Shown here one piece after another: positions 4,108 through 62,455 of a stretch of DNA of 64,000 bases; the stretch's first letter is position 1, and the number at the start of each line of letters is the position of its first letter. The stretch lies in contig CAMDDO010000005.1 in assembly GCA_945892755.1 (NCBI GenBank), forward strand, positions 1 through 64,000, read 5' to 3'. A model generated the notes under the pieces. It saw nothing but the letters and a program-made list of their open reading frames with translations. It was not told where the DNA came from and made no database searches. A program made the position numbers and the translations under genes. The stretch is from Rhizobium sp. Q54 (GTDB lineage Bacteria > Pseudomonadota > Alphaproteobacteria > UBA828).

Positions 4108-4929
4108 TCATGGCCTTGCGCGCCGGGCTTGTAAAACGCGGCGCCGGGCAGGGGAGGGACGCTCCAATTGGCGGCGTGCCGCGCGCGCGCGCGCCGCTTC
4201 ACCAAACGCGCCGAACAGCGCCATTGAGAACGGATTCTCGGTCACTTTCCATTCCGGGTGCCATTGCGCGCCGAGCGCGAAAGCGGGCGCGTCCTTCACC
4301 CGCACTGCTTCGATCAAGCCGTCGGGCGCGCGCCCTTCGATGATGAGCCCTGGCGCGAGTCGGTCGATGCCCTGGCCGTGCAGGGAATTGACCACGATCT
4401 CGGGCTCGGGCCAGAACGCGGCGAAGGCGCCGTCGGGCTCCAGCCGCACCTTGTGCGCCGGCGCGTACTGCACGTCGCGCGGTTTCGAGGTGTCGGCGCG
4501 ATGGTCCATCAGCCCCGGCACTTCTTCGATGTGTTGATGCAGCGTGCCGCCGAGCGCGACGTTGAGTTCCTGAATGCCGCGGCAGATGCAAAGAATCGGC
4601 ACGCCCGCCGCGATCGCCTCGCGAATCAGGGGAAGCGTGGTCGAATCGCGCTGCGGATCGTGCAACGTGCCCGTGCGGCTCGACGGGCCTTCATAATGGT
4701 GCGGCTCGACATTCGATGGGCTGCCGGTGAAAAGAATCCCGTCGATCCGCTCGATCAGATCCTTGCGGTCCAGTTCATCGCCAAGCGAAGGCAAGAGGAG
4801 GGGCAGGGCTTCGGCGCCCTTCATGACGCCGACGATGTATTTCTCGCCAACGACATGGAAGGGGTGAACGCCGATCTCGCGCACATCGGCCGGAATCGCG
4901 ACCAGGGGTAAAGGATGGTGGAGGGTCAT
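4108..4929 (-). CDS. Gamma-glutamyl-GABA hydrolase-like class-I glutamine amidotransferase (peptidase C26)
   Basis: LLLPSLGD...DGILFTGSPSNVEPHHY, LCICRGIQELNVALGGTLHQ, SLHGQGIDRL, GAQWHPEW. Confidence 0.88.
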   Translation of the reverse strand: MTLHHPLPLVAIPADVREIGVHPFHVVGEKYIVGVMKGAEALPLLLPSLGDELDRKDLIERIDGILFTGSPSNVEPHHYEGPSSRTGTLHDPQRDSTTLPLIREAIAAGVPILCICRGIQELNVALGGTLHQHIEEVPGLMDHRADTSKPRDVQYAPAHKVRLEPDGAFAAFWPEPEIVVNSLHGQGIDRLAPGLIIEGRAPDGLIEAVRVKDAPAFALGAQWHPEWKVTENPFSMALFGAFGEAARARAARRQLERPSPARRRVLQARRARP

Positions 4930-41105: not shown

Positions 41106-41606
41106 ATGACGCGCCATTGGTACGTCGTCCGCAGCCAGCCACACGCCGAGCGGCGCGCGCGCGAGAACTTGGAACGCCAGGGGTTCGACCCCTGGCTGCC
41201 GCTTTGCCGCCGCCGCAGGCGCCACGCCCGCAAGATGGAAATCGTGCTGCGCCCGTTGTTCCCGCGCTATCTGTTCGTCGCCGTCGATCTCGATACGACG
41301 CCCTGGCGCGCCATGCTTTCGACCTTCGGGGTGGCCAATGTGATCCAAGGGCCCGCCGGCCCCGTCCCGGTGCCGGATTCGGTCATCGAAGGCCTGCGTG
41401 CACGAGCTGATCAAGCGGGCGTGCTCGATCTTGAACCGCCGGCCTATCAAACTGGTGCGAAGGTGCGCATCACGACCGGGCCGTTGAGCGACATCGAGGG
41501 CATCTTTCAGGCGCGGACCGATGCCGAGCGCGTTTCGATTCTTTTGACGCTGATGGGTCGCGCCGTTCGGGTCATGGTGCCCGAGGGCGATATCGAGCCG
41601 GCATGA
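41106..41606 (+). CDS. NusG paralogue, RfaH/LoaP-like transcription antiterminator
   Basis: MTRHWYVVRSQPHAERRARENLERQGFDPWLPLCRRRRRHARKMEIVLRPLFPRYLFVAVDLDTTPWRAMLSTFGVANVI; KOW-like KVRITTGPLSDIEGIFQARTDAERVSILLTLMGRAVRVMVP. Confidence 0.9.
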   Translation: MTRHWYVVRSQPHAERRARENLERQGFDPWLPLCRRRRRHARKMEIVLRPLFPRYLFVAVDLDTTPWRAMLSTFGVANVIQGPAGPVPVPDSVIEGLRARADQAGVLDLEPPAYQTGAKVRITTGPLSDIEGIFQARTDAERVSILLTLMGRAVRVMVPEGDIEPA

Positions 41607-42477: not shown

Positions 42478-43617
42478 TCAGGCCCCGGCCAAAAACGCCT
42501 TGAAGCGCAAAGCGACCTCGGACGGTTTGATGGTCGGACGCCCGAGTTTGGCCATCGAGCCGGGCACGATCCGGACATGGAGCAAAGCAGGTTTCGGTCC
42601 GGCCAGCGTATCCTCGAAGGCGCGCTCGAAGCCGGCAAGGCTCTCGCACGAATAGGCCCGCTCATAGCCGCACGCCGCGGCGATTTCGCTGAACGAGACC
42701 GACGAAGAGACGGTGGCTTGGCCGCCGGTCGAATCGTGCGTGCCATTGTCGAGCACGATATGGGTCAGGTTCGGTGGCGCATAGGTGCCGATGGTGGCGA
42801 GATTGCCAAGTTTCATCAGGGCGGCGCCGTCACCGTCGAGCACCATCACCGGGCGCGTCGTATTGAGCGCGACGCCCAGGCCCATCGCGCTCGCGCCGCC
42901 CATCGAGCCGACCTGATAGAGCTGCTGCTTGCGATCCATCAGGGTGAACAGCTCGCGCCCACACTTGCCGGTCGTGGCGATCACCGCGGCGTCGGCCGGC
43001 ACGCGCCTCAAAAAGCGCTCGAGCACGGCCGCGCGGGTTGGCCGTTCGCCCCGCTCGCTCAGATCGAGCGTCGTGCCCGGCGGGCGTTCGGGCGGTGGGC
43101 CCTGATCGAGCCCTTCGTCCGTCACCGTGTCTTTCTCCATCACGAAGGCGAAAGGCAGGCCCGAATCCGCCATCCATTCGGCGGCTTGATCGAGCGCCGG
43201 GCCAACCAGGCGGGCTTCCGAAGGAAACGCCGCATGGGGAATCCGCATCAGCTCAAGCAGATCCTGCGTAATCTCACCCATGAGTCCGTGCTGCGGCTCG
43301 TCATTGAGGCCGGGCTGACCGCGCCACGTCACGATCAACAGAGTCGGAATCCGGAACGGGAAGTTCAGCGAAGTCAGCGGGTTGACCGTGTTGCCGAGGC
43401 CCGAGTTCTGGCACATCACGACGGTCTTGCGCCCAGCGAGGTGCGCGCCGGCGGCGATTGCCACGGCCTCGCCCTCCGATGTCGCGCCAACATAATTCGT
43501 TGCCGGGTCGGAGATCACGCGGTTGATCAGCGGCGTCAGGAACGAGCACGGCACACCGGTATAGAAATCGAAACCACGCGCACGCGCGGGGCCCAGAAAT
43601 TCATCGGTGGAAATCAT
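42478..43617 (-). CDS. ppd: Phosphonopyruvate decarboxylase (ThDP-dependent)
   Basis: YTGVPCSFLTPLINRVI, GATSEGEAVAIAAGAHLAGRKTVVMCQNSGLGNTVNPLTSLNFPFRIPTLLIVTWRGQPG; ThDP motif VLDGDGAALMKLGNLATIG. Confidence 0.88.
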   Translation of the reverse strand: MISTDEFLGPARARGFDFYTGVPCSFLTPLINRVISDPATNYVGATSEGEAVAIAAGAHLAGRKTVVMCQNSGLGNTVNPLTSLNFPFRIPTLLIVTWRGQPGLNDEPQHGLMGEITQDLLELMRIPHAAFPSEARLVGPALDQAAEWMADSGLPFAFVMEKDTVTDEGLDQGPPPERPPGTTLDLSERGERPTRAAVLERFLRRVPADAAVIATTGKCGRELFTLMDRKQQLYQVGSMGGASAMGLGVALNTTRPVMVLDGDGAALMKLGNLATIGTYAPPNLTHIVLDNGTHDSTGGQATVSSSVSFSEIAAACGYERAYSCESLAGFERAFEDTLAGPKPALLHVRIVPGSMAKLGRPTIKPSEVALRFKAFLAGA

Positions 43618-46478: not shown

Positions 46479-48149
46479 CTACATCAGATTGCGTGCCTTG
46501 GCGAGGTCGAAGGCGTCGTCGACGTCAAGCCAATGGCCGGTGATGTAAAGCACCGAAACTGGAACGCCTTGCGCCATCAGGCGGGTCAGGAGATCGGGCA
46601 GGTCGGCACTGGCGATGCTGCCATCGGCACGCATGCGCGCGAGCTCGGCCTTGACCAGCGACGTGCCTCGATCGCTCAACTTGACCAGGCCGATGAACTC
46701 GCCATGGGTTTCGCTCGACGGCAGGTCGGGCGCGATCGCGACCAATGGCGCCGGTCCCTCGTCGAGATAGCTGCCGGTAAACGCCCGCCCGCATTTGACC
46801 CGGTCGATCTGGCGGTCCGGCGCGCGATGGCCCGGGCTGTTCCAACGCGCATCGGCGACCACCACGATATCGCCCTCGGCGCCGATCAGATCGTCGACGA
46901 TATAGGGGCGGAACAGAATGTCGCCATAGCTCACGACGCAGTCGCCGTCGAGCGCTGCTTCCGCGCACGCCAGCGAGGCGACCTCGCCGGTCGCGGCGAA
47001 CGCGTCATTGTCGACCGTCTTGATGTTGGCGAGGTCCACGGTCTCCTTGGCGAAGCCGCGCACGACGGTGATGTCGCGCACGCCGCTCTCGTTCAACGTG
47101 GCGACCAGCCGGCGCAGCAGCGGCTCGCCGCGCAAATCGATCATGCACTTCGGCCGGTTCGCCGTGAGCGGGCCGAGTTTGGTACCTTGCGTCGCGGCCA
47201 GCACGATCGCGCGCGGTCTCTGCTGCTGCGGCGCGAGATAGCGACTTTCCGCCTGGGTCAGCTCGCTCTGGCCAACCAGATCAAAGACTTCCTTCACGCC
47301 GGCGATCTCGCCTTCGACCCCGATCAGGCCATGCTCCCGCATGATGCGGCTCGATACGGCGCGCATCGCGGTGATCGCGGCGCGCAAATTGTGGTTGGCC
47401 CAGATCACCATGTTGACGCTATTGGCCTCGAAGGCTTCGCTCGGCGTGCGGTAGTACATGGTCGGCACGATCACGACCGGCGAACGGCCCGCCCACTCGC
47501 GGCAGAAGGCGAAGATCTCGTCGGCGGTAGATTTTTTCGAGTGGATCAGCACCGCGTCAGCCCCCGACCGGTGATAGGCCTCGGCGCGGCGCAGCGCTTC
47601 GTCGAGTCCCCAACCCGAAATCAGCGCTTCGATGCGCGCGACCAGCACGAAGTCGGCGTCGGTCTGGCTATCCTTGCCGGCTTTGATGCGGCCGCAGAAC
47701 TCGTCGATATCGGCCAAGGGCTGCGCCTCGCCGACGAAGGAATTCGTCTTCGGAAACAGCTTGTCCTCGATGCAGACGCCGGCGATCTGGCGTTGGCACA
47801 GCTTCCTCACCAGACGACGGACATTGTTGAAATTGCCATAGCCGGTATCGCCATCGACCAGGATCGGGATCGTGGTCGCATCCGACATGAACTCGAGCTG
47901 GTCGAGCACCTGGGTCCAGGAGGCCTCATTGTTGTCGCGCACGCCGAGCGCCGCCGACATCGACAGGCCCGACGCCCAAATGCCCTTGAAGCCGGCCTCC
48001 TCGACGATTTTGGCCGACAGCCCGTTATGAGCCTCCATGAGGTAGGAGAGCGTGGGCGAAAACAGCTCGGCGCGGAGCCGGGCCGGCTTGGAGCGGGCGG
48101 GATCGGTTGCGGCATCCGGGGTGGGCTGCGCTCGGGAACGGGTCGCCAT
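46479..48149 (-). CDS. Phosphoenolpyruvate phosphomutase fused to a nucleotidyltransferase (PepM-PntC-like)
   Basis: Pep[63 protein letters not shown], signature [12 protein letters not shown]-terminal NTP transferase: [40 protein letters not shown]...[10 protein letters not shown]. Confidence 0.92.
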
Positions 48150-48228: not shown

Positions 48229-48284
48229 TGTTCACGAACTGAACATTTCGCTTGACCCGCCATGTTCGAAAATTGAACATGGCG
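48229..48284. promoter_or_regulatory. Divergent promoter/operator region with two perfect inverted repeats
   Basis: TGTTCA-CGAAC-TGAACA (48229-48245); CGCCATGTTC-GAAAATT-GAACATGGCG (48258-48284), between a TTGACC (48252) and a GAACAT (48275) spaced 17 nt. Confidence 0.65.
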
Positions 48285-48332
48285 ATTGTCGCGCCGGAAT
48301 CGGCCTTTGGCCGGCGCCGGCTGTTTTACGCA

Positions 48333-48366
48333 CCGGGTGCGGTGCACCCGGGAGGGCGGTAGCGTG
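48333..48366 (+). promoter_or_regulatory. Leader hairpin plus ops-like RfaH-recruitment element
   Basis: CCGGGTGC-GGT-GCACCCGG (48333-48351), then GGCGGTAGCGTG (48355-48366), 40 nt before ATG 48407 on the coding strand. Confidence 0.6.
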
Positions 48367-48406: not shown

Positions 48407-49057
48407 ATGCCAAAATCCCGCGAAGAAGACATCATCCGAGACATCCTCGTCCGCATCGACGATTCGGCGGAGGTCAACCAGCGTGCGCTGTCCAAGGAGC
48501 TTGGCATCGCGCTCGGCATGACCAACGCCTATATGCGCCGCTGTGTTCGCAAGGGCTATATCAAGATTAGGCAGATTCCGCCCAATCGCTACGCCTATTA
48601 CCTGACGCCCAAAGGCTTCACCGAGAAGACGCGGCTGACCGCGCAGTTTCTGTCTGATTCGTTCGGGTTCTTCCGCCGCGCGCGCGGGCAATATGGCGAA
48701 CTCTATGCGACCTGCGTGGCGCAGGATTGGCGCCGCCTTGCGCTCGCGGGCATCAGCGAGCTCGGCGACGTTGCCGTGCTCTCGGCGCGCGGTCATCCGG
48801 TCGAGTTGGTTGGCATGATCGAGCCGATGCGGGCGGGCGAGCACTTTCTCGGGCTGCCGGTGATGTCGGAACCACAGGCGTTCCCGACGCTCGATGCGAT
48901 ACTGCTCACCTCGGTCGAACGCCCGCGCGAGACTCACGCTTGGCTCACCTCGATCTTCCCGCCCGAGCGCGTGCTCGCGCCGAAGCTCTTGGGCCTGCAT
49001 CGCGGCAATGGTGCGGCCGCAAAGTCCATTGGCGAACCGAAAGGCGACAGCGCGTGA
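48407..49057 (+). CDS. EPS-locus winged-helix (MarR_EPS-like) transcriptional regulator
   Basis: EVNQRALSKELGIALGMTNAYMRRCVRKGYIKIRQIPPNRYAYYLTPKGFTEKTRLTAQFLSDSF. Start revised from 48212. Confidence 0.82.
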   Translation: MPKSREEDIIRDILVRIDDSAEVNQRALSKELGIALGMTNAYMRRCVRKGYIKIRQIPPNRYAYYLTPKGFTEKTRLTAQFLSDSFGFFRRARGQYGELYATCVAQDWRRLALAGISELGDVAVLSARGHPVELVGMIEPMRAGEHFLGLPVMSEPQAFPTLDAILLTSVERPRETHAWLTSIFPPERVLAPKLLGLHRGNGAAAKSIGEPKGDSA

Positions 49058-50142
49058 GCGGCGGGTCCGAGCGCCTTTGCTTGCTCATCACCGGCGGCGC
49101 GGGTTTCATCGGTTCCAACCTGGTACGCCGGCTGGTCCGCGAGGGTCGCCACCTCATCGTCAATCTCGACAAACTGAGCTATGCCGGTAATCTCGATTCG
49201 CTGGTCGGGATCGAGGTCGCGCCCCTCTATCGCTTCGAGCACGCCGACGTCGCGGACGGGCGCGCGGTCGCGCGCATCATGGAGCGTTATCGGCCGGATG
49301 CGCTGCTCAATCTTGCCGCCGAAACGCATGTCGACCGCTCGATCGAAGGGCCGCAGGATTTCATCCAGACCAATGTAGTCGGAACCACGATATTGCTCGA
49401 CGCGGTTCGCGCCTATCTGCGTGGGCCGCGCGGCGTGCGGGCGAATGCTGCGTTGGGCGATGGTGGCTTTCGTTTCCTTCAGGTCTCGACCGACGAAGTG
49501 TTTGGCGCGCTCGGCCCGGTCGGCCGTTTCTCGGCGGCGAGCCCCTACAGGCCGAACTCGCCTTATGCCGCCAGCAAGGCTGCGGCCGACCATTTGGCGC
49601 GCGCTTTTGGCCGCACCTTTGGCTTACCGGCGATTGTCACCAACTGCACCAACAATTATGGCCCGCACCAATTTCCGGAGAAGCTGATTCCGCTCGCGAT
49701 CCTAAAGGCGGAGAACGGGCGCGCCATCCCGGTCTATGGCGATGGTCTCCAGGTGCGCGACTGGCTCCATGTCGACGACCACGTGGACGGGCTTCTGGCA
49801 GCGCTCTTCAAGGGAGAACCGGGCGAAACCTACGTGTTCGGCGGTGAAGCCGAGCGCACCAATCTTGAGGTGGTCGAGCTGATTTGCACGATCATGGATC
49901 GGTGCCGCCCTGCCGGAGCGCCACATCGCCGGCTGATCGAACATGTCGACGATCGACCGGGCCACGATCGGCGCTATGCGATGGACATTCGTACCACCGT
50001 GGCGCGCCTCGGCTGGCGCCCGACGGCGCGATTCGAAGACGGCCTCGAGGCCACGGTGCGCTGGTATCTTGACAATCTCGCCTGGTGCCGTCGCGTACAG
50101 GACGGTTCCTATCGTGGCGAGCGGCTCGGGCTGCTGGCATGA
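49054..50142 (+). CDS. rfbB: dTDP-glucose 4,6-dehydratase
   Basis: [69 protein letters not shown] start overlaps the upstream stop. Confidence 0.93.
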
Positions 50143-51077
50143 GCGCCACCAAGCGTAGAGGCATCGTTCTCGCCGGCGGCACCGGCTCACGCCTGCTGCC
50201 AACCACGCGCTCGATCTCCAAGCAGCTTCTGCCGGTTTACGACAAGCCGATGATCTATTACCCGCTCTCGGTCCTCATGCTCGCCGATATCACGGAAATC
50301 CTGATCATCACGCGGCCCGAGGAGCGCCACTTGTTCGAGCGCCTGCTTGGCGACGGTGCGCAATGGGGCCTGCGTCTCGACTATGCGACGCAAGACGCGC
50401 CGCGCGGCATCGCAGAGGCCTTCATCATCGGCGAGAAATTCCTCGACGGTGCGCCTGTCGCCATGGTGCTCGGCGACAATATTTTCTATGGCGAAGGTCT
50501 CGGCCGGACCTTGCGCCGCGCCGGTCGCGCCGGCGATCCGGCGGCGATTTTCGCCTACTACGTGCAGAATCCGCGCGACTATGGCGTGGTCGAATTCGAC
50601 GCCGACGGCGCCGTGCGTTCGATCGAGGAGAAGCCGTCACAGCCGCGCTCGTCCTACGCGGTCACGGGGCTCTATTTCTATGACGAGCGGGCGCCGGCCA
50701 TGGCGCGCGCGCTCAAGCCATCGGCGCGCGGCGAGATCGAGATCACCGACCTGAACCGGCGCTATCTCGACGAGGGCGTCCTCAAGGTCCATGTGCTCGG
50801 GCGCGGCGCGGCCTGGCTCGATATGGGGACGCACGACTCCTTGCTCGAGGCCGGCAATTACGTCGCCACGATCGAGCGTCGCCAGGGCCTTAAGATCGCC
50901 TGCCCGGAGGAGATCGCGTTTCGTCGCGGCCTGATCGGGCTCGATCAGCTGCGCGCGTTGGCCGAGGCCATGGGTCAGACCGATTATGGCCGCTATCTCT
51001 TGGCGTTGACCGAGGAGAGCCGGACCTATTTGAGCGATGAGATCGAAGCTTCGCCGCGCTTCGTGAAGCCGCGATAG
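50139..51077 (+). CDS. rfbA: Glucose-1-phosphate thymidylyltransferase
   Basis: [62 protein letters not shown] overlap with rfbB. Confidence 0.95.
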
Positions 51078-51118
51078 GGCCGCCCGACAGGACTCCGACC
51101 ATTTCTCCGACACGCGAC

Positions 51119-51976
51119 ATTGAACGCTGGGTCTTCACCGCCTCGCCCGGCCGCAGCGGGCAGGGCACGCTTGCGGCGTTCCTTGCCACCCATGTTGAGG
51201 GGGCCCATGTCGCCTTCGAGGAACCCCAAGTGCGCCCGCTCTTGCCCGGCGCGCTCGGCGACCTTGAGCGCCATTTCAGGCGGCGCTTTATCGAGACCGA
51301 CGAAATGCTCGGCCGCGGCCGCATCCTGGCGGCCGACGCGGCCGCCGACCATCGCTATATCGACCGCGTCGTGGCGCAACGATTGCACGTCATTCGTCGC
51401 GAGGCACGGCGCACAGGCGCGCGCCTCTACATCGACGTCAATAGCCGCTTCGTGCGCGGCCTGTGCTGGGGCTTCATGCGTGCCCTGCCGCGCCTATCAC
51501 TGATCCGCCTGCTCCGCGATCCGGTTCTGGTGATGCGAAGCTACCTCAATCGGAGCAAGAGCTTCGCCAAGGAACATGTCTCGCCGAACGCGCCTAATAA
51601 TCTTCTCCGGCTCGACCCATCGGGCTTTTCACCGGGAGAGTTCTATCTATGGGCGTGGTGCGAGTGTTATTTGCGTTTCGATCAGTTCGCGGCGTTGCCG
51701 GTGGTCGATAAGGCCGTCGAGCTTCGTACGGAAGCCCTGAACGATGCGGCGAGCATGAACCGGTTCATGGACGCGCTCGATTTGCCGCATCGACCCGCCC
51801 GTGTCCTCGCGCCAAGCAACAGCAATCTCGGCCAAGGCTATGGGGCTACCCGGATCTCGGCCGACGATGTGCGCCTGCTGCATCGTTTCCTCGATCGATT
51901 GACGCCCGAGCTGCGCGCGCGCCTGCGCTATTTTGAGAGCTATGCACCGCCCCAGCTCGGCGAGACTGCGTCATGA
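51119..51976 (+). CDS. Sulfotransferase-like P-loop protein (start codon uncertain)
   Basis: Frame is open from 51041; P-loop-like RWVFTASPGRSGQGTLAAFLATH lies upstream of the first standard start (GTG 51230). Confidence 0.6.
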   Translation: MERWVFTASPGRSGQGTLAAFLATHVEGAHVAFEEPQVRPLLPGALGDLERHFRRRFIETDEMLGRGRILAADAAADHRYIDRVVAQRLHVIRREARRTGARLYIDVNSRFVRGLCWGFMRALPRLSLIRLLRDPVLVMRSYLNRSKSFAKEHVSPNAPNNLLRLDPSGFSPGEFYLWAWCECYLRFDQFAALPVVDKAVELRTEALNDAASMNRFMDALDLPHRPARVLAPSNSNLGQGYGATRISADDVRLLHRFLDRLTPELRARLRYFESYAPPQLGETAS

Positions 51977-52947
51977 GCCCGCGCGATGCGCTCAAGGCGC
52001 GGGTGCGCCGCATCAGCCCTGGCTGGCGGCGCAGTCATGCCGCCTTGGTCGAGCATCTGAGCAAATTGGCCCCTCGGTTGAAATTTGGCGCGGACGACGA
52101 TCCGGTTGCGCGGCTCGTCGACGAAGGCGTTTCGCTATTCGGCTTTTGGAGCGACGAGGCGGCGCTCGCCTTGCACGCGACGATGCCGTCCAAGCTCAGG
52201 GGGTTGATTCCCGCGCGCCATTTCCGCCTCGCGCACGATGTGTTGACCCGCTTCGTCTATCCTCATATGCGCCCCGACCTCAAGCCAGGTGGCTATGCCC
52301 CGCCGCAAATGACGGGCTTCCACGGTCAGCACAAGGATGCCATCGCCGATTTCCCTGATGTCGCGGCGCGAAGTTTGTTGCTGGAGGCGTTCCAACCCAG
52401 ACCGGGCGAAACGGTTCTCGATGGCGGCGCCTTCCTAGGATTTGGCGCCCTCGCCTTGAGGCCAGCGATCTTAGGCGGGCGCATTATCGCGGTAGAGGCC
52501 GCCGGCGCTTGTGTCCGTCTGCTGGAACGAAATATCACCGCCAATGGCGCGACGGGAGAAATCGTTCCTGTTCATGCCGCGCTGTGGTCGACGCCCGGCA
52601 GGCGCACGCTGAAACGCCAATTCGCGCAGGCGGCCAGCCTGATCGACGAGATCGTGCCAGAGGGCGCCGATGAAACGGTCGAGGCCACGACTGTTGATCA
52701 GCTGGTTGAGCGCTTCGGGCTCGCGCGTCTCGACATGCTCTCTTTGACCATCAATGGCGCCGAGATCGCCGCTCTTGAAGGGGCTGGCGAGACGCTCCGA
52801 CGCTGGCGCCCGCGCGTCAGACTCGCCGGTTGGTACAAGATCGACGGTCAGCCGGTGGCGGCGCGCGCGGTCGAGTGTCTCGGAGCCGCCGGTTACCGAA
52901 CCTTCGTCGGCCCGCGCGGCAATGTCCTGGGCTTGCCGTTGGCGTAG
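51973..52947 (+). CDS. FkbM-family methyltransferase
   Basis: PGETVLDGGAFLGFGALALRPAILGGRIIAVEAAGACVRLLERNITANG; TTVDQLVERFGLARLDMLSLTINGAEIAALEGA. Confidence 0.85.
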   Translation: MSPRDALKARVRRISPGWRRSHAALVEHLSKLAPRLKFGADDDPVARLVDEGVSLFGFWSDEAALALHATMPSKLRGLIPARHFRLAHDVLTRFVYPHMRPDLKPGGYAPPQMTGFHGQHKDAIADFPDVAARSLLLEAFQPRPGETVLDGGAFLGFGALALRPAILGGRIIAVEAAGACVRLLERNITANGATGEIVPVHAALWSTPGRRTLKRQFAQAASLIDEIVPEGADETVEATTVDQLVERFGLARLDMLSLTINGAEIAALEGAGETLRRWRPRVRLAGWYKIDGQPVAARAVECLGAAGYRTFVGPRGNVLGLPLA

Positions 52948-52949
52948 CC

Positions 52950-54788
52950 ATGATCGGTCTCTTCGGATTGTTTCACGGCGCGCGCGACGCGCCGGCCGAT
53001 CTTGCGCCACTTGCTCGCCGCGTGCCGTCGCGCTACGCGCTTGACGCGCCGGCCGGTCGGGGCGCGGCGCTCGCGCGTGTCGCCCATATGCTCGATCGTG
53101 CAAATAGCCGCGCGACCGACCATCGATTCACCTGCGTAGTCACCGGCGAGCTATTCGATTCGGCCCCCTATCGCGGACTTGGCGCCGAGAGCAGTTTTGC
53201 GGCGCTCATCGTTGCCCTGGCCCACGACAGGCAACTTGACCGCTTGTCCGAAGCCAATGCCCAGTTCAGCGCCGCGCTCTATGATCATCAGCGCCACGCC
53301 CTGACGCTGATCACCGATAGGCTGTGCACTCACCCGCTTCACCTATGGCGCGGCGGTGGCGAGCTCGTATTCGCCAGTCAAATTCATACGCTGATTGGTG
53401 ATTCTCGGGTGTCGCGCGCGCTCGATCCGGCGGCGCTTGCGCAACTCTTCACCATGCAGCGGACCTTCGGCAGTACGACGCCGTTTCGAGATATCGTCGC
53501 CCTACCTGCGGGCGCGCTGGTTTCGTTCGATGGCAAGACGGTCGAGGAGAAGCGCTATTGGGAAATGCGCTGGCGCCCGGCGGGCTTGAGCAAACGCGAG
53601 ACCGCCGCCGCGCTCGCGACGGCGTTGCGAAACGCGCTTGCGCGCCAATCGTCGGGCCGCGTTGGCATGTTGCTTTCGGGCGGACTCGATTCGCGCACTC
53701 TGCTTGCCGCGGCGCCCGCGCCGATGCCGAGCTTCACCACCGCGAGCTATGACAATCCGGAAATGGCGATAGCGCGTGAGACGGCGTCACGGCTCGGCGC
53801 GGCCCACCACCCGATCATATTCGATCCGGCGTCGATCCTTGAATTTCATGACGAGGCGGTGCGCGATTCGGGCGGTATGTACCCGGCCTCGACGCCGTTC
53901 GCCGCCATGATGCCGGTTGTCTCGGCCGGCTGTGATATCACGCTCAGTGGTCACGGCCTCGACTACACGCTGCGTGGCTACTATACGCCGGCACGCTTTT
54001 TGGATGTTGGCGGTTCACACACCCGGCTGCCGACGCTGCGCGCGCTACCGGCGCACCCCTCGGGCGCCGACGTTCTCGCCAATTTACGCCAGGGTCCGCC
54101 ACGCGCCACGGTTGAGCACATCATCGCGCCCGAATGGCGCACGGCGTGGTGGGAGGGTCAGGCACGCACGCTCGATCGGGTGCTGGAGCCTTGGCTTCAT
54201 TCCGATGAACCGCGCAACGCCTGGGACGCGCTGATCCTTCACGCGGTCAGCAAGCACTATGCGTTCTGCGGCATGATGGCGGTGCGCGCGGCGACCGATT
54301 TGCGCCTCCCGGCATTCGACAACGAAGTGTTCGAGATCTATCTCGGCATGAAGCCGGCGTGGCGTGTCGGCGCGCGGGTCATGCAACGCGCTGCGCAATT
54401 GATCAATCCGGAGATAGCGCGTCTGCCCAACGCCAATACCGGTTTTCGTGCCGACTTGCCTGGCTGGCTCGAAGTCGCCGGCCTTCTGGGTCGCGGCCTG
54501 ATGCGTCGGCTCGGTCTTGCGATGCGACCGGCCCTACCGAGTGAGGCGCACAGCGCCGGCTCGTGGCAGAATTTCAGCGCACTTTATCGCAACGACCCGG
54601 CGCACCGGGCTCGGCTTCTTGAAGTTCGCGGCCGGCTCGATTCCCTATCGTTCGGCGTGCTTCGGATCGACGCGCTTGCCGCTTGTATCGACGAGCATCT
54701 GACCGGCGCCGCCAACCACCCCAAGCTCTTACGCCAGCTCATCACGCACGATGCGTGGGTTCGTCTGTTCGAGCCACGTGCGGCATGA
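52950..54788 (+). CDS. Asparagine synthase-like protein lacking the N-terminal catalytic Cys
   Basis: MIGLFGLFHGARD N-terminus; PP-loop GRVGMLLSGGLDSRTLLAA; HALTLITDRLCTHPLHLWRGGGELVFASQIHTL. Confidence 0.85.
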   Translation: MIGLFGLFHGARDAPADLAPLARRVPSRYALDAPAGRGAALARVAHMLDRANSRATDHRFTCVVTGELFDSAPYRGLGAESSFAALIVALAHDRQLDRLSEANAQFSAALYDHQRHALTLITDRLCTHPLHLWRGGGELVFASQIHTLIGDSRVSRALDPAALAQLFTMQRTFGSTTPFRDIVALPAGALVSFDGKTVEEKRYWEMRWRPAGLSKRETAAALATALRNALARQSSGRVGMLLSGGLDSRTLLAAAPAPMPSFTTASYDNPEMAIARETASRLGAAHHPIIFDPASILEFHDEAVRDSGGMYPASTPFAAMMPVVSAGCDITLSGHGLDYTLRGYYTPARFLDVGGSHTRLPTLRALPAHPSGADVLANLRQGPPRATVEHIIAPEWRTAWWEGQARTLDRVLEPWLHSDEPRNAWDALILHAVSKHYAFCGMMAVRAATDLRLPAFDNEVFEIYLGMKPAWRVGARVMQRAAQLINPEIARLPNANTGFRADLPGWLEVAGLLGRGLMRRLGLAMRPALPSEAHSAGSWQNFSALYRNDPAHRARLLEVRGRLDSLSFGVLRIDALAACIDEHLTGAANHPKLLRQLITHDAWVRLFEPRAA

Positions 54789-56101
54789 CCGCGTCATTCG
54801 CTTATCGTTTCTCGCTCGCGCCGAACCTCGCGCTCTTTCGTGCTGAAATCGAGCACGCACTCAGCTTTGTGGAGCGCGCGCATGGCATCGGCCGCGATCC
54901 ATCCGCCGCGCGCGTGCTGCACTATGGACCGGAGCCACCGGAAGGCGCGCTCGCCGTGCCGGCGGTCTTGTTTCCGGGCGGTGTGCGTTTGGCGGAAGAC
55001 GGTATTCATCCGGTACGCGAGGCGCTCGAAAAACTTGCCGCTGGCGTCGGGCCAGCCCCGCTTTTTCCGGTCCGGGGACCGGCGGCCTCGGATGAGCGCT
55101 TCGCTTATGACGCGATCGGTTTGATCGCCCTGATGCTGACCCGGCTCGAAGAGCGAGGCAGCCCGGCCAATGATCGCTATGGCCGTTTTCCTTATGCCGC
55201 GTCCATGGCGGCACGCTTTCATTCGAGCGCCGAGCCCGCCGCCGACCAAGCGGCGCGCGATCTCGCTTTGGCGCTCACCGGTGGTCACGCGCCGAGCGCC
55301 ACGTCCTATGAGGTGCTGGTGACCCATGATGTCGACCGTTTGCGCGGCTATCACCGGCCGCTTACACCCTTGCGCGAGGCGGCGGGTGATCTCCTGAAAC
55401 GCCGAAGCCCGTTGAGGGCATCGCGGCGTCTGTGGCGCGCTTTTGGCGGTGGCGATCCCTGGCGCTCGGCGCGCCGGTTGATGGCGCGCTCCGAGGCCAG
55501 AGGCGTCCCGAGCCGGTTCTATTTCATGGGGCCCAGTGCGGCCTCGATGGATAGTCCCTACGCGCTTTCAATGGCGCCACTCTTACGCCGCTTGGTCGGG
55601 GAGATTCAGGGTCGTGGCCACCTTATCGGCTTTCATCCCGGTTTTGGCACGGCGAGCGATGCGGCCTTATGGACGCGCCAGAAACAAGGCCTTGAGCGAA
55701 TCATCGGGCTCCAGGTGAACGAAGGCCGTCAGCATGTGCTTGGCTATGACGCCGCGACGACGCCCGATATCTGGGCCAGCAACAGCATGGTGCTCGACCT
55801 CACACTCGCCTTTCCCGAAATTACCAATTTTCGCGCTGGCACCTGCCGTCGGTTCAAGGCCTATAGCTTGACCCGTCGTACGCCGCTGGCGCTGGAACAA
55901 GCCTCGACCGCGTTGATGGATTTCGGCCTATTCGGCGGCAAGTACCGCGACCTAAGTCCCCAACAGGCGCTTGATGAGGCGTCGCGCGCCGCCGATATTT
56001 GCCGGCGCTTCGGCGGCGCGTTCGTGGTGCTGCACCATCTTGGGTCGTGCGATGCCAAGGTCGACCGATTTTTCGAGACCGTCATGCGCGAGGTTGCATG
56101 A
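54785..56101 (+). CDS. Polysaccharide deacetylase-like protein (long form)
   Basis: YEVLVTHDVDRLRGYHRPLTPL; PSRFYFMGPS; GHLIGFHPGFGTASD. ATGA overlap with the upstream gene. Confidence 0.78.
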   Translation: MTASFAYRFSLAPNLALFRAEIEHALSFVERAHGIGRDPSAARVLHYGPEPPEGALAVPAVLFPGGVRLAEDGIHPVREALEKLAAGVGPAPLFPVRGPAASDERFAYDAIGLIALMLTRLEERGSPANDRYGRFPYAASMAARFHSSAEPAADQAARDLALALTGGHAPSATSYEVLVTHDVDRLRGYHRPLTPLREAAGDLLKRRSPLRASRRLWRAFGGGDPWRSARRLMARSEARGVPSRFYFMGPSAASMDSPYALSMAPLLRRLVGEIQGRGHLIGFHPGFGTASDAALWTRQKQGLERIIGLQVNEGRQHVLGYDAATTPDIWASNSMVLDLTLAFPEITNFRAGTCRRFKAYSLTRRTPLALEQASTALMDFGLFGGKYRDLSPQQALDEASRAADICRRFGGAFVVLHHLGSCDAKVDRFFETVMREVA

Positions 56102-56835
56102 GCGCGGCCACCGGCTTCTCGCCCGAGAGCTATGCCGCGCTGATTGATTCCCTTCGCGCGCGCGGCTATGAGGGGCGCGATTTCTTCACGGTGCGCCCGG
56201 AGGCGCGCCATCTCGTCTTGAGGCACGACATTGACGTCTCACTCGATGCCGCCCTCGCCATGGCTGAGTTCGAGGTCAAGCTTGGTCTGCGCGCGACCTA
56301 TTTCGTTCTGTTGCGTTGCGAACTCTATAACCCGTTCGCCGAGGCCGGTCGCAAGGTATTACGGCACCTTGGTGCGCTCGGCCACGAAGTCGGACTGCAT
56401 TTCGATGCGGCGCTCGTCGACGGCGGTATGGAGGCGCTCGACCAAGCCGCCGCCGAGGAATGCGCCATGCTCGAAGGCTTGATTGACCGGCCGGTTCGAA
56501 TCATCAGTTTCCACCGGCCGGCACAAGCGCTGCTTGGGCTCGCGCGCCCGCTCGCGGGGCGCGCCCATGCCTATGAGCCGCGCTTCTTCAAGGCGATCGG
56601 TTATTGCAGCGATTCGCGCGGCGCGTTTCACCATGGCGATCCGTCGTCTCACCCGGCGGTGATGGCCGGAACCGCCTTGCAATTACTCACCCACCCGATC
56701 TGGTGGATGGCGGAAGCCGGCATCGACGCGACGGATCGGCTGGAGCGCTATGTCACTGGCCGCAGCGCCGCCATGCGTCGAGCGCTCGCCACCATGATCG
56801 AAAGCTATGACCCACAGCGCGGGGCCGGCGAATGA
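56098..56835 (+). CDS. Polysaccharide deacetylase-like protein (short form)
   Basis: LVLRHDIDVSLDAALAMAEFEVKLGLRATYFVLLRCELYN; LGHEVGLHFDA. Confidence 0.78.
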   Translation: MSAATGFSPESYAALIDSLRARGYEGRDFFTVRPEARHLVLRHDIDVSLDAALAMAEFEVKLGLRATYFVLLRCELYNPFAEAGRKVLRHLGALGHEVGLHFDAALVDGGMEALDQAAAEECAMLEGLIDRPVRIISFHRPAQALLGLARPLAGRAHAYEPRFFKAIGYCSDSRGAFHHGDPSSHPAVMAGTALQLLTHPIWWMAEAGIDATDRLERYVTGRSAAMRRALATMIESYDPQRGAGE

Positions 56836-57827
56836 CGCCGCGCATCGCCGTCATCGGCGCCGGCCATTGGGGCCGCAATCTGATGCGCAATTTCGATGCG
56901 CTCGGTGCGCTCGCCGCGTTCTGTGACGAAGACGCGGCAACGCTCGCGCGCGAAGCCGCGGCCTTTCCGAAGGCGCGCGTCGCCCGAACGCTTGAGGCGC
57001 TTCTGGCCGATCCCACCATCGATGCGGTCGCGATCTCGACGCCGGCCGCGACCCATAGCCTGCTCGGCCGCCGTGCGCTCGAAGCCGGCAAACATGCATT
57101 TATCGAAAAGCCGCTTTGCCTGACTGCGACCGAGGCCGAAGCGCTTGGCCGCCTTGCCGACAAGCTCGATCGCACGCTGATGGTCGGCCATCTCTTGTTG
57201 TTTCACCCGGCGTTCGCGGCCTTGAAGCGCTTTGTCGCCGAGGGCCGCATCGGGCCCTTGCGCTATATCTATTCGAACCGCGCGAGCCTCGGGCGGATCA
57301 GGCGCGAGGGTGGTGCGCTCTGGGAGTTCGCTCCGCATGACGTGTCGATGATTCTCGGTCTGACCGGTGCCATGCCGGAGCGGGTCACTTGCGTTGGCGG
57401 CGCTTGGTTGCAGGCGGAGGTCGCTGATCTGACCCTGACGCATTTGGCGTTTCCGAACGGTATTCAGGCCCATATTTTCGTGTCGTGGCTGCACCCCTAT
57501 AAGGATCACCGCATGGTGGTGATCGGCGCCGAAGGCATGGTGGTGTTTGACGATGTCGCACAGGGGCCGAATAAATTGTTGCACTACCCGCACGTGGTCG
57601 ACATCACGGGCGATATTCCGGCCGTCACCAAAGCGCCCGCCATGCCGATCGCCTATAACGCCGAGGAACCCTTGGCGCGCGAATGCCGGCATTTTCTTGA
57701 CTGCGTGGCGAATCGAAAAACGCCGATCAGCGATTGGCGGGAGGGTCATCGGGTGCTTGCGGTCTTGCAGGCCTGCCAACGCGCGTTGAACTCGGGCGGC
57801 GCGTCGATTGTCGAGGCTTTGCCGTGA
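56832..57827 (+). CDS. Gfo/Idh/MocA-family oxidoreductase
   Basis: RIAVIGAGHWGRNLMRNFDALGALAAFCDED; AISTPAATHSLLGRRALEAGKHAFIEKPLCLT. Confidence 0.9.
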   Translation: MTPRIAVIGAGHWGRNLMRNFDALGALAAFCDEDAATLAREAAAFPKARVARTLEALLADPTIDAVAISTPAATHSLLGRRALEAGKHAFIEKPLCLTATEAEALGRLADKLDRTLMVGHLLLFHPAFAALKRFVAEGRIGPLRYIYSNRASLGRIRREGGALWEFAPHDVSMILGLTGAMPERVTCVGGAWLQAEVADLTLTHLAFPNGIQAHIFVSWLHPYKDHRMVVIGAEGMVVFDDVAQGPNKLLHYPHVVDITGDIPAVTKAPAMPIAYNAEEPLARECRHFLDCVANRKTPISDWREGHRVLAVLQACQRALNSGGASIVEALP

Positions 57828-58837
57828 GCGGGCGCGCCACCAAGCAGCCAGTCCGCGTGGCGGTCATTGGCACAGGCTATTTTGGCAGCCTGCACGCCGG
57901 CAAATTGGCGACGATGGAGGGCGTCGAACTGGTCGCCGTGGTCGACGCCGATCCCGAAACCGCGCAGACGGTCGCGACCAAGCATGGCGTGCTCGCGCTC
58001 AGCGATCCGCGCGCGGTGATTGGACGCATCGATGCCGCGATCGTCGCGGTGCCGACCAAAGCGCATTTCGAGGTGGCTGACATGCTTCTCGGCCATGGCA
58101 TTCACGTCATGGTCGAAAAGCCGATCACCGACGATCCTATAACCGCCCGCCGCTTGGTTGACCTTGCCGCCAAGAAGGGTTCGGTTCTACAGGTCGGTCA
58201 TTTGGAGCGATTTTCGGCGGTCGGCGTCGCGCTGCGCGAAAAGGTGCGCGATGCGCTCTATATCGAATCCTATCGCATCGCGCCGTTTCGCGAACGCGGC
58301 ACCGATGTTGGCGTGATTCTCGATCTCATGATTCATGACATCGATTTGATCTTGGCCTTCGTGCGGGCGCCGATCGATTCGGTCGAGGCGATCGGTGTTC
58401 CGGTGTTGTCGCCCTCGGAAGACGTCGTCAACACGAGGGTCCGCTTTCAGAACGGCTGCTTCGCGACCATGACGGCGAGCCGGGTCAGCTTCAAGGCCGA
58501 GCGCAAAATGCGCATCTTCCAGCCAGAGTCCTATATCGGAATCGATTTTCTCGAGCGCACCTTGAGACATGTCTACAAGAAGGACTCGACCTCTGGCGTC
58601 GGGCGCCCTGAAATCGCCATCGAAAACCAAACATACCAGGAATCCGATGCCATTCTTGAAGAGGACAAGGCCTTCATCGCCGCCATTGCCAATGGCACGG
58701 CGCCGTTGGTCAGTGGGACCGATGGTTTGAGGGCGCTCGAGGCCGCGACCTTGATCATGAAAAGCCTGCATGAAAATCTGGCGCGCTTTGCCACGGCGCG
58801 CATGGCCGCGCACCGGCGGATCCCCGAGGCGATCTAA
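57824..58837 (+). CDS. Gfo/Idh/MocA-family oxidoreductase (second paralogue)
   Basis: VRVAVIGTGYFGSLHAGKLATMEGVELVAVVDAD; GIHVMVEKPITDDPITARRLVDLAAKKGSVLQVGHLERFSAV. Confidence 0.9.
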   Translation: MSGRATKQPVRVAVIGTGYFGSLHAGKLATMEGVELVAVVDADPETAQTVATKHGVLALSDPRAVIGRIDAAIVAVPTKAHFEVADMLLGHGIHVMVEKPITDDPITARRLVDLAAKKGSVLQVGHLERFSAVGVALREKVRDALYIESYRIAPFRERGTDVGVILDLMIHDIDLILAFVRAPIDSVEAIGVPVLSPSEDVVNTRVRFQNGCFATMTASRVSFKAERKMRIFQPESYIGIDFLERTLRHVYKKDSTSGVGRPEIAIENQTYQESDAILEEDKAFIAAIANGTAPLVSGTDGLRALEAATLIMKSLHENLARFATARMAAHRRIPEAI

Positions 58838-58843
58838 GAGCCG

Positions 58844-59413
58844 ATGAATTCAGCGAGCTTCTTCGCTCACCCGAGCGCGATCGTGGCCGATGGCGCGGTC
58901 ATTGGTGCCGGCACCAAGATTTGGCATTTTTGCCATGTCATGGCGAAGGCGCGGCTCGGCGAACGCTGCGTGCTTGGCCAGAACGTCATGATCGGCCCCG
59001 ATGTCGTCATCGGCAATGGCTGCAAACTGCAAAACAATGTGGCGCTCTATACCGGCGTCACGCTGGAGGATGAGGTGTTTTGCGGCCCGTCTTGCGTTTT
59101 CACCAACGTGTTGACGCCGCGCGCCTTCGTCGAACGTAAGACCGAGTTCATGCCCACTTTGGTCAGGCGCGGCGCTACCATCGGCGCCAACGCCACCATT
59201 ATTTGCGGCGTTACCATCGGGCGCTATGCCATGATTGGCGCGGGCGCGGTGGTCACGCGCGATGTCAGGGATCACGCCCTAATGATTGGCAACCCGGCGC
59301 GCGAGCGCGGCTGGGTCGGCCGGTCGGGCGACGTGCTCGGCGCCGACCTCATTTGTCCTCGTACCGGAGAGCGTTATCGTGAAACCGAGCCCGGCCTTGT
59401 CGCCATCGGCTGA
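58844..59413 (+). CDS. Left-handed beta-helix N-acetyltransferase (WbpD-like)
   Basis: Hexapeptide repeats: AIVADGAVIGAGTKIWHFCHVMAKARLGERCVLGQNVMIGPDVVIGNGCKLQNNVALYTGVTLEDEVFCGPSCVFTNVLTPRA. Confidence 0.9.
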   Translation: MNSASFFAHPSAIVADGAVIGAGTKIWHFCHVMAKARLGERCVLGQNVMIGPDVVIGNGCKLQNNVALYTGVTLEDEVFCGPSCVFTNVLTPRAFVERKTEFMPTLVRRGATIGANATIICGVTIGRYAMIGAGAVVTRDVRDHALMIGNPARERGWVGRSGDVLGADLICPRTGERYRETEPGLVAIG

Positions 59414-60548
59414 ACCGGCCGGGGAGCCGATCAGCTTCTTCGATCTCAGGGCGCAGCACGCGCGGCTGCGCACCCAGATCGACATTCGCTTGGCGCGCGT
59501 GCTCGAGCACGGCGCCTTCGTGCTCGGCCCCGAGGTCCAGGAGTTCGAGCGGCGAATGGCGTCCTATACCGGCGCGCCACATGCCGTGACTTGCGCCAAC
59601 GGCACCGACGCACTCACCATCGCCTTGATGGCCGACAACATCGGGCCGGGCGATGCGGTGTTCCTGCCATCCTTCACCTTCACCGCGACCGCCGAGGCCG
59701 TCGCCCTGATCGGCGCCACGCCGGTCTTCGTCGATGTCGACGCCCGCACCTTCTTGATCGATGGCGATGACCTCGAGCGGCGCATCGCGGCGGTGCGAAA
59801 GGCCGGTGCGCTCAAGCCACGCGCATTGATCGCGGTCGATCTGTTCGGTCAGCCCGCCGATTACGACCGGCTCAATCCGCTCTGCGAATCCGAGAACCTG
59901 CTGCTCATTGCCGATGCCGCGCAAAGTTTCGGCGCGCGCTATAAGGGCCGCGTCGCGGGCGCCCTCGCGCCGGTTTCGACGACCAGCTTCTTTCCGTCGA
60001 AGCCGCTCGGCTGCTATGGCGATGGCGGCGCACTGTTCACCACGGACGAAGGACGCGCGGCGGTCTATCGCTCGATCCGCGGCCATGGCACCGGCGACGC
60101 GAAGTACGAGGTGGTCCGGATCGGCCTCAATAGCCGGCTTGATTCGCTCCAGGCCGCGGTTCTGCTTGCCAAGATCAACGTGGTGGACGACGACCGCGCG
60201 GCGCGCGCGGCGCTCGCCGCCGCCTATTCCGAGGGCCTCGCCGATCTCGTGATGACGCCGATCACCCTGCCTGAGCGTGAGAGCGCCTGGGCCCAATACA
60301 CGATTCAAGTCGATCGACGCGACGACGTGCAGGCGGCCTTGAAGGCGCGCGGCGTGCCGACCGCGATCTATTATCCGCGCCCGATGCATTTGCAGCCGGC
60401 CTATGGGCGCTGGAGCGAGGGGCCGGGCTCGTTACCGGTGAGCGAGCGGCTTTCGGCGCGCGTGCTTGCTCTGCCCATGCACGCCGACATGCGGCCCGAG
60501 GCACGTGCCCGCATCATCGAGGCGGTGCGTGAGGTCGTGAAAGGGTGA
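59379..60548 (+). CDS. DegT/DnrJ/EryC1-family sugar aminotransferase (WbpE-like)
   Basis: AVTCANGTDALTIALMADNIGPGDAVFLPSFTFTATAEAVALIGATPVFVDVD; AAQSFGARYKGRVAGALAPVSTTSFFPSKPLGCYGDGGALFT. Confidence 0.92.
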   Translation: MKPSPALSPSAEPAGEPISFFDLRAQHARLRTQIDIRLARVLEHGAFVLGPEVQEFERRMASYTGAPHAVTCANGTDALTIALMADNIGPGDAVFLPSFTFTATAEAVALIGATPVFVDVDARTFLIDGDDLERRIAAVRKAGALKPRALIAVDLFGQPADYDRLNPLCESENLLLIADAAQSFGARYKGRVAGALAPVSTTSFFPSKPLGCYGDGGALFTTDEGRAAVYRSIRGHGTGDAKYEVVRIGLNSRLDSLQAAVLLAKINVVDDDRAARAALAAAYSEGLADLVMTPITLPERESAWAQYTIQVDRRDDVQAALKARGVPTAIYYPRPMHLQPAYGRWSEGPGSLPVSERLSARVLALPMHADMRPEARARIIEAVREVVKG

Positions 60549-61261
60549 CGAAGCCGGCCGATCGAACTGTTGTCGTCGCCATTCACCAGCCCAATTACCT
60601 GCCCTGGCTCGGCTATTTTCATAAGCTCGCGCGCGCCGAGGTCTTCGTCTTCCTCGAAGCCGCACAGTTTTCAAAGGGCAGTTACACCAATCGCGTTCAG
60701 ATCCTGCGCGACGGTAAGCCGGTCTGGCTCACCCAACCCATCGAACAATCTTTGGGCCAGCCGATTGAGACCGTTGCCTTTGCCGATCGACTTTGGCCCC
60801 GCCGCCACGTCGATACTCTGCACGGTGCCTATCGCGGTGCCGCCGCCTTTCGCGCGGTGTTTCCGTACCTGGAATCGTTGCTGCTCAAGGCGCCGCTCGA
60901 CTCGCTCGCCGCCGCCAATCGTCATCTGATCGAGGGGCTCGCCGCGGCGCTCGGACTTGCGCCGCGCTTCGCCCGCGACGGCGTGCTTGGTGTCAGCGGA
61001 CTCGAGGGCGATGATCGCCTCGTTGCGTTGGTTGGCGCCGTGGCGCCGGGCGCAGTCTACCTCTCGGGCAAAGGTGGCGCCCTCTATCAGGACGAAGCCA
61101 AATTCGCCAGTGCCGGCATTGCGCTGCGTTATAGCGCGTTCACGCCGAAGGCCTACCAGCAAACCGGCGGCGGCGGATTCGTGCCGGGGTTGTCGATTGT
61201 CGATGCACTGTTCTCGCTCGGCATCGATGCGACGAGGGCGTTGGTCGCCCCGGAAGAGTGA
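60545..61261 (+). CDS. WbqC-like family protein
   Basis: VAIHQPNYLPWLGYFHKLARAEVFVFLEAAQFSKGSYTNRVQILRDGKPVWLTQPI. Confidence 0.88.
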   Translation: MTKPADRTVVVAIHQPNYLPWLGYFHKLARAEVFVFLEAAQFSKGSYTNRVQILRDGKPVWLTQPIEQSLGQPIETVAFADRLWPRRHVDTLHGAYRGAAAFRAVFPYLESLLLKAPLDSLAAANRHLIEGLAAALGLAPRFARDGVLGVSGLEGDDRLVALVGAVAPGAVYLSGKGGALYQDEAKFASAGIALRYSAFTPKAYQQTGGGGFVPGLSIVDALFSLGIDATRALVAPEE

Positions 61262-61267
61262 AGTCGC

Positions 61268-62455
61268 GTGGTCCTCAAAGTGCTTTGCCTCGACGGCGAG
61301 GGCGGCTATGGCGGCTCCTCGCGCAGTCTGTACGAATCGCTCGCGGCGATGGATCGACGCGCGATCGAACCGATCATTTGGTGTGCCCGCAAGGGCCCGA
61401 TCGTCGAGCGTTATGGTGCGCTCGGCATGACATGCACGGCCGAGCCTCTCATGCCGCGCTTCACGTCTCTGCCGCGCCTCTCACGGAGTCTTTATGGTCT
61501 GCTTCGGGTTGCGTTGGCGTTTCGCGCGGCGCGGCCGCTTCTTGGTCGTTTAGCGCAGGCCGCCAACGAGGCCGACATCGTCCATTTCAACCATGAGGGC
61601 CTCTTTCTATTGGCGCACTGGCTCAGACGACGCTGTCAGACCCCGATCGTGATGCACCTGCGCACCAATTTGGTCGATACGCCGGTCGCGCGCTGGCAGG
61701 CGCGCATGATCAGTCGATGCGCCGACCGCTTGGTATTCATTACCGAGAACGAGCGGGCAAGCTTCGTTCGGCACGGCGGCGATCCATCACGCGGCGTGGT
61801 GATCTACAACATCGCGCGCCCACCCGATGCTTCGGTCACGCCGCATCCCGTCGTGACGCAAGACGGGCGCTTCACCGTCGCCGCGCTGGCCAATTTCGCG
61901 CTGGTGCGTGGCACCGATCGGCTGCTCGACATCGCGGCCGAGCTGAAACGCCGTGGCCGGTCGGACATTCGCCTGGTGATCGCCGGCGACATGCGGATGA
62001 GAGGGCGTATCCCCTCGAACCTCAAGGCCGCTGACCCCAGCGCGACGAGTCTCGATCGGCTCGCCAAGGCACGCGGGCTCGACGACGTGATGCTGTTTCT
62101 GGACCACGTCGCCGAGCCGGAACGCGTTCTGACCGCCGCTCATGCACTGATCCGGCCGAGCCGGGGCGATGACCCGTGGGGCCGCGACGTGCTTGAGGCC
62201 CTGGCCGCTGGCAAGCCGGTGATTGCGACCGGCCGCTATGATCGCTTCGTCGAGACCGGCTTAACCGGCGTGCTGTTGCCCGAATACAGCCCTGGCGCCG
62301 CCGCCGACGCCATTGTCGGTCTGGCCGACGATCGCGCGACTGCCGCTCGGCTCGGCGCCAATGGCCGCGCCCGCGTGCTCGCGCTCTGCGATGGTAAAGC
62401 GCGCGCCGCCGATTTGCTCGCGGTCTGGCACGCCGCGGCAAATCCGGTGGCATGA
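61268..62455 (+). CDS. Family-4-like glycosyltransferase
   Basis: LCLDGEGGYGGSSRSLYESLAAM; FTVAALANFALVRGTDRLLDIAAEL; RPSRGDDPWGRDVLEALAAGKPVIATGRYDRFVETG. Confidence 0.85.
   Translation: MVLKVLCLDGEGGYGGSSRSLYESLAAMDRRAIEPIIWCARKGPIVERYGALGMTCTAEPLMPRFTSLPRLSRSLYGLLRVALAFRAARPLLGRLAQAANEADIVHFNHEGLFLLAHWLRRRCQTPIVMHLRTNLVDTPVARWQARMISRCADRLVFITENERASFVRHGGDPSRGVVIYNIARPPDASVTPHPVVTQDGRFTVAALANFALVRGTDRLLDIAAELKRRGRSDIRLVIAGDMRMRGRIPSNLKAADPSATSLDRLAKARGLDDVMLFLDHVAEPERVLTAAHALIRPSRGDDPWGRDVLEALAAGKPVIATGRYDRFVETGLTGVLLPEYSPGAAADAIVGLADDRATAARLGANGRARVLALCDGKARAADLLAVWHAAANPVA

Follow-up and report, generated by a model that had tools for sequence, protein, structure and literature searches.

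A conserved hairpin-ops element of the JUMPstart kind in a glycan operon leader and beside RfaH-like genes of Alphaproteobacteria

The ops-like element and its operon

The window, by which we mean the whole 64,000-nucleotide stretch of Rhizobium sp. Q54 DNA that was analysed, contains on its plus strand a glycan operon of 15 genes and 15 kb (48407-63531). Nine of its 15 open reading frames begin in a 4-base overlap with the preceding stop codon, in agreement with the run of overlapping stop and start codons described in the original prediction. The operon products include RmlB (dTDP-glucose dehydratase), RmlA, an FkbM methyltransferase, WbqC, two glycosyltransferases, an asparagine-synthase-like protein and a deacetylase-like protein, together with oxidoreductases, an acetyltransferase and an aminotransferase that were named from reading their translations. 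The first gene (48407-49057, plus strand) encodes a winged-helix protein similar to MarR_EPS (TIGR04176, 59 bits, below the cut-off). Further upstream on the same strand lies a gene for an RfaH-like NusG paralogue of 166 amino acids (41106-41606), and between this gene and the operon we observed minus-strand phosphonate genes, encoding a phosphonopyruvate decarboxylase and a PEP mutase fused to a nucleotidyltransferase-like domain (42478-43617 and 46479-48149).

In the operon leader, the ops-like 12-mer GGCGGTAGCGTG (48355-48366, plus strand; core GCGGTAGC at 48356-48363) is separated from the ATG at 48407 by 40 nt, an exact match at the predicted spacing from the first gene. GGCGGTAGNNT is present here on the non-template strand of a long-operon leader, with the operon as the likely target of the element and the RfaH-like protein as its likely ligand. 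In Escherichia coli, recruitment of RfaH requires C3, G4, G5, T6, A7 and G8, a change at G4, G5, A7 or G8 abolishes it, and the TG at positions 11-12 serves pausing, for which the central ops bases needed by RfaH are dispensable (PMC5995543). All of these bases, including the pausing TG, are found in the window element, and GGCGGTAGCGTG is identical in the E. coli JUMPstart/ops with RfaH (RF01707).

By number alone, the 12-mer is not significant in either the window or the genome: when up to one mismatch was allowed, GGCGGTAGNNT had 15 matches in the window compared to 11.4 expected, and GGCGGTAGCGTG occurs twice in the 3.27-Mb genome compared to three occurrences of a reversed control pattern. 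It is through position, context and conservation that the element goes beyond chance. A second GGCGGTAG in the window (47523), which falls within the PEP mutase gene of the opposite strand and is not matched by the covariance model described below, was taken as a chance occurrence.

Upstream of the element, a -35-like CTTGAC (48251-48256, plus strand) is located between two GTTC-N7-GAAC palindromes on the same strand (48230-48244 and 48264-48278), the second of which overlaps this predicted promoter. Judging from the promoter-like motif, the likely transcription start is some 70 nt before the element and not downstream of it. In the whole genome there are exactly two matches to the combined motif CTTGAC-N6-9-GTTC-N7-GAAC, and each precedes a copy of GGCGGTAGCGTG, by 76 nt in one case and 78 nt in the other. 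The second copy (contig C4, position 24387) heads a plus-strand glycan cluster of more than 15 kb, which is a predicted trans target of the RfaH-like protein. We named formyltransferase, deacetylase, NeuB-like, asparagine-synthase and WbpG-like genes from their translations in this cluster (locus L003, contig C4 20000-39999), and GTTC-N7-GAAC palindromes are also found in its leader, which is without a MarR_EPS-like gene. Within the window's family, tandem palindromes (two or three) surround a TTGA(C/T) box in every leader with the element (L048, L049, L051, L052, L054-L057, L089, L095 and L109, and the window at 48230-48278). This arrangement suggests a regulated promoter, in which the palindromes would likely be operators for the MarR_EPS-like first gene product, a candidate to bind them.

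The original prediction had also noted that the lack of a strong Shine-Dalgarno sequence would fit RfaH-type coupling. None is visible before the ATG at 48407, but this feature does not discriminate, since in a crude test 38 first genes were no poorer in Shine-Dalgarno content than 494 other open reading frames of the same loci.

Conservation in the family and across Alphaproteobacteria

We searched 95 relatives and found an orthologous RfaH-like gene, with 47-82% identity to that of the window, in ten family genomes including the window's own. All ten (10/10) carry GGCGGTAGCGT in the leader, and this 11-mer is invariant across the family leaders, in genomes ranging from 35 to 65% GC. The aligned leaders have diverged nearly throughout, except for the palindromes, CACCC and the 11-mer, and the conservation across orthologous operons that was to be checked was thus borne out. 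The element was not found in any of nine family genomes without the ortholog, and in two genomes of 78% and 84% completeness the element was present and no gene was found; in total, 12 family genomes have 13 leader sites between them. For four genomes, including two at 35-36% GC, the leader copy is the sole GGCGGTAGCGT, and all other copies in family genomes whose context was read lie inside a long open reading frame. The element is 3-7 kb from the rfaH-like gene in the window's family and precedes a MarR_EPS-like gene in the family loci with a readable downstream gene. Genus g5, also in this family, has RfaH-like genes of a more distant type (37-41% identity), and no element was found in the stretches examined for them. 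In one genome (G037, locus L059), a pair of GGCGGTAGTGTCC sites close to the rfaH-like gene share their flanks and resemble the ends of a repeat or mobile element, and were not counted; two identical CGGCGGTAGTGTCCTAATTTGAAAT stretches on the minus strand upstream of an rfaH-like gene (L059, 2481 and 3655) are perhaps mobile-element ends.

In the wider class, a scan of 85,462 species yielded 80 loci with RfaH-like genes, including loci from Bradyrhizobium, Nitrobacter, Pseudolabrys, Paramagnetospirillum and many Rhodospirillales. In an unselected count of all 8-mers in the 250 nt that follow the gene, over 79 loci, GCGGTAGC ranked top (50/79 loci) and was found in none of them antisense or upstream. 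The typical class form is TCACCCGGACTGCGGTAGCRTG, which mostly lies 47-94 nt past the rfaH-like stop codon, ahead of the first glycan gene; outside the window's family the element usually begins with T, unlike in E. coli. Among 94 elements compared, positions 2-5 and 7-9 were invariant, with T6 in 91, T11 in 89 and G12 in 77, and although the searches that collected these elements favoured core bases, the ranking of GCGGTAGC over the 79 loci is free of such a choice. GTTC-N7-GAAC palindromes were absent near the class-wide elements. In three loci (L210, L211 and L224), T6 is replaced by C (GCGGCAGC); in E. coli, T6 is flipped into a pocket of RfaH. In addition, Bradyrhizobium retamae (L189) has two copies of the element behind the rfaH-like gene, at 4297-4335 and 4536-4575, about 240 nt apart.

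The RNA hairpin and co-occurrence with RfaH-like genes

While the predicted 12-mer is exact, the true element is longer than 12 nt, with a covarying RNA hairpin abutting the 12-mer. In the window this hairpin, CCGGGUGC-ggu-GCACCCGG (48333-48351, plus strand), lies directly upstream of ops, has CACCCG as its 3' arm, and in general ends at or just before the element. The whole hairpin and ops element (48331-48366, plus strand) matches covariance model R1 with 28.0 bits (E 4e-4 over 1.5 Mb). R1 was trained on nine loci from species other than the window's, with a seed of equal geometry, and a search of 1.5 Mb returned 57 places at E < 0.02, the window and C4 sites among them. On the whole genome, R1 found exactly these two sites, so that the 12-mer, the promoter motif and R1 each have exactly two genomic sites, in the same two glycan leaders. 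We counted 33 double changes in the stem compared to 13.4 +/- 2.7 after shuffling, and 30 compared to 11.7 +/- 2.6 in a further, class-wide sample. Because the structure guided both alignments, their absolute values are biased in its favour, and shuffles and slides are the fair comparison; the double changes were well above both controls. Matched arms also paired more stably than arms swapped between loci (-14.4 versus -11.6 kcal/mol, permutation sd 0.23).

A stem-loop has been described in the gammaproteobacterial JUMPstart (Weinberg et al., PMC2864571), and of all Rfam families, JUMPstart (RF01707) alone matched the window leader (48340-48366), albeit with 20.5 bits against a cut-off of 35; no match to this model exceeded the cut-off in any of 289 alphaproteobacterial genomes. 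R1, on the other hand, also detects the E. coli rfb JUMPstart, in which a CUGGU...GCCAG stem-loop is followed by one nucleotide and then GGCGGTAGCGTG; here too, a stem-loop precedes ops. Both signals occur in polysaccharide-operon leaders of genomes that encode an RfaH-family protein, whereas the CACCC 3' arm of the alphaproteobacterial hairpin is missing from the E. coli JUMPstart. With the RNA 3' end at U11, the predicted pause, the stem of the window hairpin ends 14 nt behind it; for many of the other Alphaproteobacteria this distance is 11 nt, and for E. coli 12 nt. The covarying RNA hairpin belongs to the conserved signal in Alphaproteobacteria and Gammaproteobacteria alike, and the element is a real, widely conserved regulatory element of the JUMPstart/ops kind.

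Co-occurrence was assessed over 289 alphaproteobacterial genomes with a completeness of 90% or more, using thresholds of E <= 0.01 for R1 and E <= 1e-25 for RfaH-like genes. The element was found in 42 and the gene in 72 of the 289, with both in 37 genomes, and this association (37/42 compared to 72/289) has a Fisher P of about 2e-21 when phylogeny is ignored. An ops-like site is not unusual in Alphaproteobacteria, contrary to the original prediction: about 15% of the sampled genomes have one, mostly those with an RfaH-like gene. Five genomes (G054, G215, G225, G227 and G277) have the element and no RfaH-like match at this threshold, which may reflect chance, missed genes or another partner, and 35 genomes have the gene and no R1 match. 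Coordinates were compared for 28 gene-element pairs, and in 21 of these the element is on the same strand within 250 nt downstream of the gene. In other genomes, the elements are 20-650 kb from the gene (68 kb and 647 kb among them), and such far-off elements fit trans targets, as expected.

The RfaH-like protein and its proposed recruitment

The gene at 41106-41606 was predicted to encode an RfaH/NusG paralogue, and RfaH (TIGR01955) is indeed its best family match with 125.4 bits, compared to 81.9 for UpxY, 50.8 for NusG and 47.3 for LoaP, although the score is under the RfaH equivalog cut-off of 144.5 bits. At E <= 0.01, no second gene of this type was found in the 3.27-Mb genome, and all 72 homologs match TIGR01955. 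Of the side chains through which E. coli RfaH contacts ops directly, K10, H20, R23 and R73 (PMC5995543), the window protein keeps R23 alone, having Q11, N21, R24 and F74 at these positions. Across the 72 homologs, K10 is Q, H, R or K, H20 is H or N in 71, R23 is R in 58, and R73 is replaced by a hydrophobic residue in nearly all, while Q24 and T72 are kept in 71. E48 forms the salt bridge whose change releases E. coli RfaH from autoinhibition; it is R in the window protein and mostly R or A in the homologs, so that both R73 and E48 of E. coli RfaH are lost here. AlphaFold2 predicted an all-beta barrel for the C-terminal domain (CTD) with 72 sequences (pLDDT 80-89), and no CTD fold was resolved with 13 sequences. 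Structures 8phk (RfaH recruited at the ops-paused complex) and 6c6s were among the top fold matches, and NusG structures score alike.

The changed E48 and the predicted beta CTD argue against an autoinhibited alpha-helical CTD. Given the loss of R73 and E48 and the predicted NusG-like beta CTD, recruitment probably works without metamorphic autoinhibition. Thus, the site has been kept, whereas part of the known recognition and the autoinhibition seem to have changed. Either other residues read the site, for example the near-invariant W67-R68 or R24-Q25, or its main role is to halt polymerase so that an always-open RfaH made nearby can load. Reading appears favoured over pausing alone, because the invariant bases are those that RfaH needs and that E. 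coli pausing does not.

Several known systems resemble parts of this arrangement. As described in a 2026 preprint (PMC13015549), monomorphic RfaH of Idiomarina and Pseudidiomarina has a predicted NusG-like beta CTD, lacks some of the ops-contact residues and is encoded near its target operon, as here; the proteins tested were active without ops in E. coli, whereas here a conserved ops-like element lies beside the gene. Proximity of the rfaH-like gene to its target also differs from E. coli, where the gene is distant. LoaP/EAR and put-type systems likewise have a leader RNA hairpin before a long operon and, for LoaP, a NusG paralogue, but here the ops pause core is fused to the hairpin and the protein scores 125 bits for RfaH compared to 47 for LoaP. 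UpxY of Bacteroides and TaA are NusG paralogues encoded in or beside their own glycan operons, as here; according to Wang et al. 2020 (PMC7593976), no recruitment mode is known for either, while a candidate site is identified here.

Family conservation and the class-wide occurrence of the close variant TGCGGTAGCRTG adjoining RfaH-like genes support the original pairing of an ops-like element with an RfaH-like gene. Very probably, the element is where an RfaH-like antiterminator is loaded as the leader of a long polysaccharide operon is transcribed, which would make it the alphaproteobacterial counterpart of JUMPstart/ops. In the mechanism that we infer from these sequences, RNA polymerase would initiate about 70 nt upstream at the palindrome-flanked promoter, make the hairpin and then pause at the ops consensus U11 (window 48365), when the hairpin would be just out of the RNA exit channel. 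The exposed non-template strand could fold into a GC-GGTA-GC hairpin, which is what E. coli RfaH reads. There the RfaH-like protein (41106) would bind and remain on polymerase, excluding NusG and Rho and aiding the following ribosome, such that all 15 genes are expressed; it would also act in trans on the second glycan cluster of more than 15 kb on contig C4. Since the element lies about 40-95 nt behind the rfaH-like stop in most Alphaproteobacteria, the protein could load near where it is made. A more tentative extension, which we consider possible but would not rely on, is a composite signal made of an RNA hairpin in the exit channel and the ops hairpin of the non-template strand, which would be read jointly or act in concert and load a permanently open, non-metamorphic RfaH with a beta CTD from the gene directly upstream. 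If true, sequence-specific ops recruitment would be older than, or independent of, autoinhibition and fold-switching.

The signal might instead be a pause or RNA-hairpin antitermination signal, put-like or EAR-like, that acts alone or via NusA, NusG or the ribosome, with the RfaH-like protein loading nonspecifically in cis and the sequence unread. Covariation of the hairpin would suit such a signal, as would the loss of R73 and E48, the predicted beta CTD and the ops-independent activity of beta-type gammaproteobacterial RfaHs in E. coli (PMC13015549). However, the central ops bases required by RfaH and dispensable for pausing are invariant (in a collection that favoured them), element and gene co-occur strongly, and elements far from the gene (contig C4, and 68 kb and 647 kb elsewhere) are what trans recognition needs, which makes this explanation improbable. 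A DNA operator for an initiation factor such as the MarR_EPS-like protein, controlling the promoter rather than elongation, would fit the family arrangement, in which the element precedes a MarR_EPS-like gene close to conserved palindromes. We regard this as very unlikely, since the palindromes are a separate and better candidate operator that is absent near the class-wide elements, where the site sits behind the rfaH-like gene and before glycan genes, and since the hairpin shows RNA-type covariation and the element is specific to one strand. Finally, the copy numbers in window and genome would be compatible with a chance 12-mer match beside an unrelated NusG paralogue, but strand- and position-specific conservation in 12 family genomes and dozens of class loci, together with hairpin covariation, leaves this almost certainly wrong; family leader conservation and the class-wide ranking of GCGGTAGC refute it.

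According to Wang et al. 2020 (PMC7593976), 18% of rfaH genes are alphaproteobacterial, although within this group the mode of recruitment is known for E. coli RfaH alone; the 2026 preprint (PMC13015549) reports tests of gammaproteobacterial homologs alone. The portions of these two studies drawn on here contain no description of a site beside alphaproteobacterial rfaH genes, and the open-access literature that we searched, which leaves subscription papers outside, contains none of an ops/RfaH site in Alphaproteobacteria or rhizobia. A hairpin-ops signal by RfaH-like genes across Alphaproteobacteria therefore seems previously undescribed. It provides a precise, testable recruitment site for alphaproteobacterial RfaH-like proteins, plus a predicted target list, and it calls into question a joint origin of ops recognition and autoinhibition, given that the site persists alongside proteins in which residues for both functions have changed. 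In addition, one genome (G177) has two RfaH-like paralogues (C3:349037-349681 and C9:42562-43189), each followed by its own hairpin-ops element at 120-140 nt, and these pairs are a natural test of specificity.
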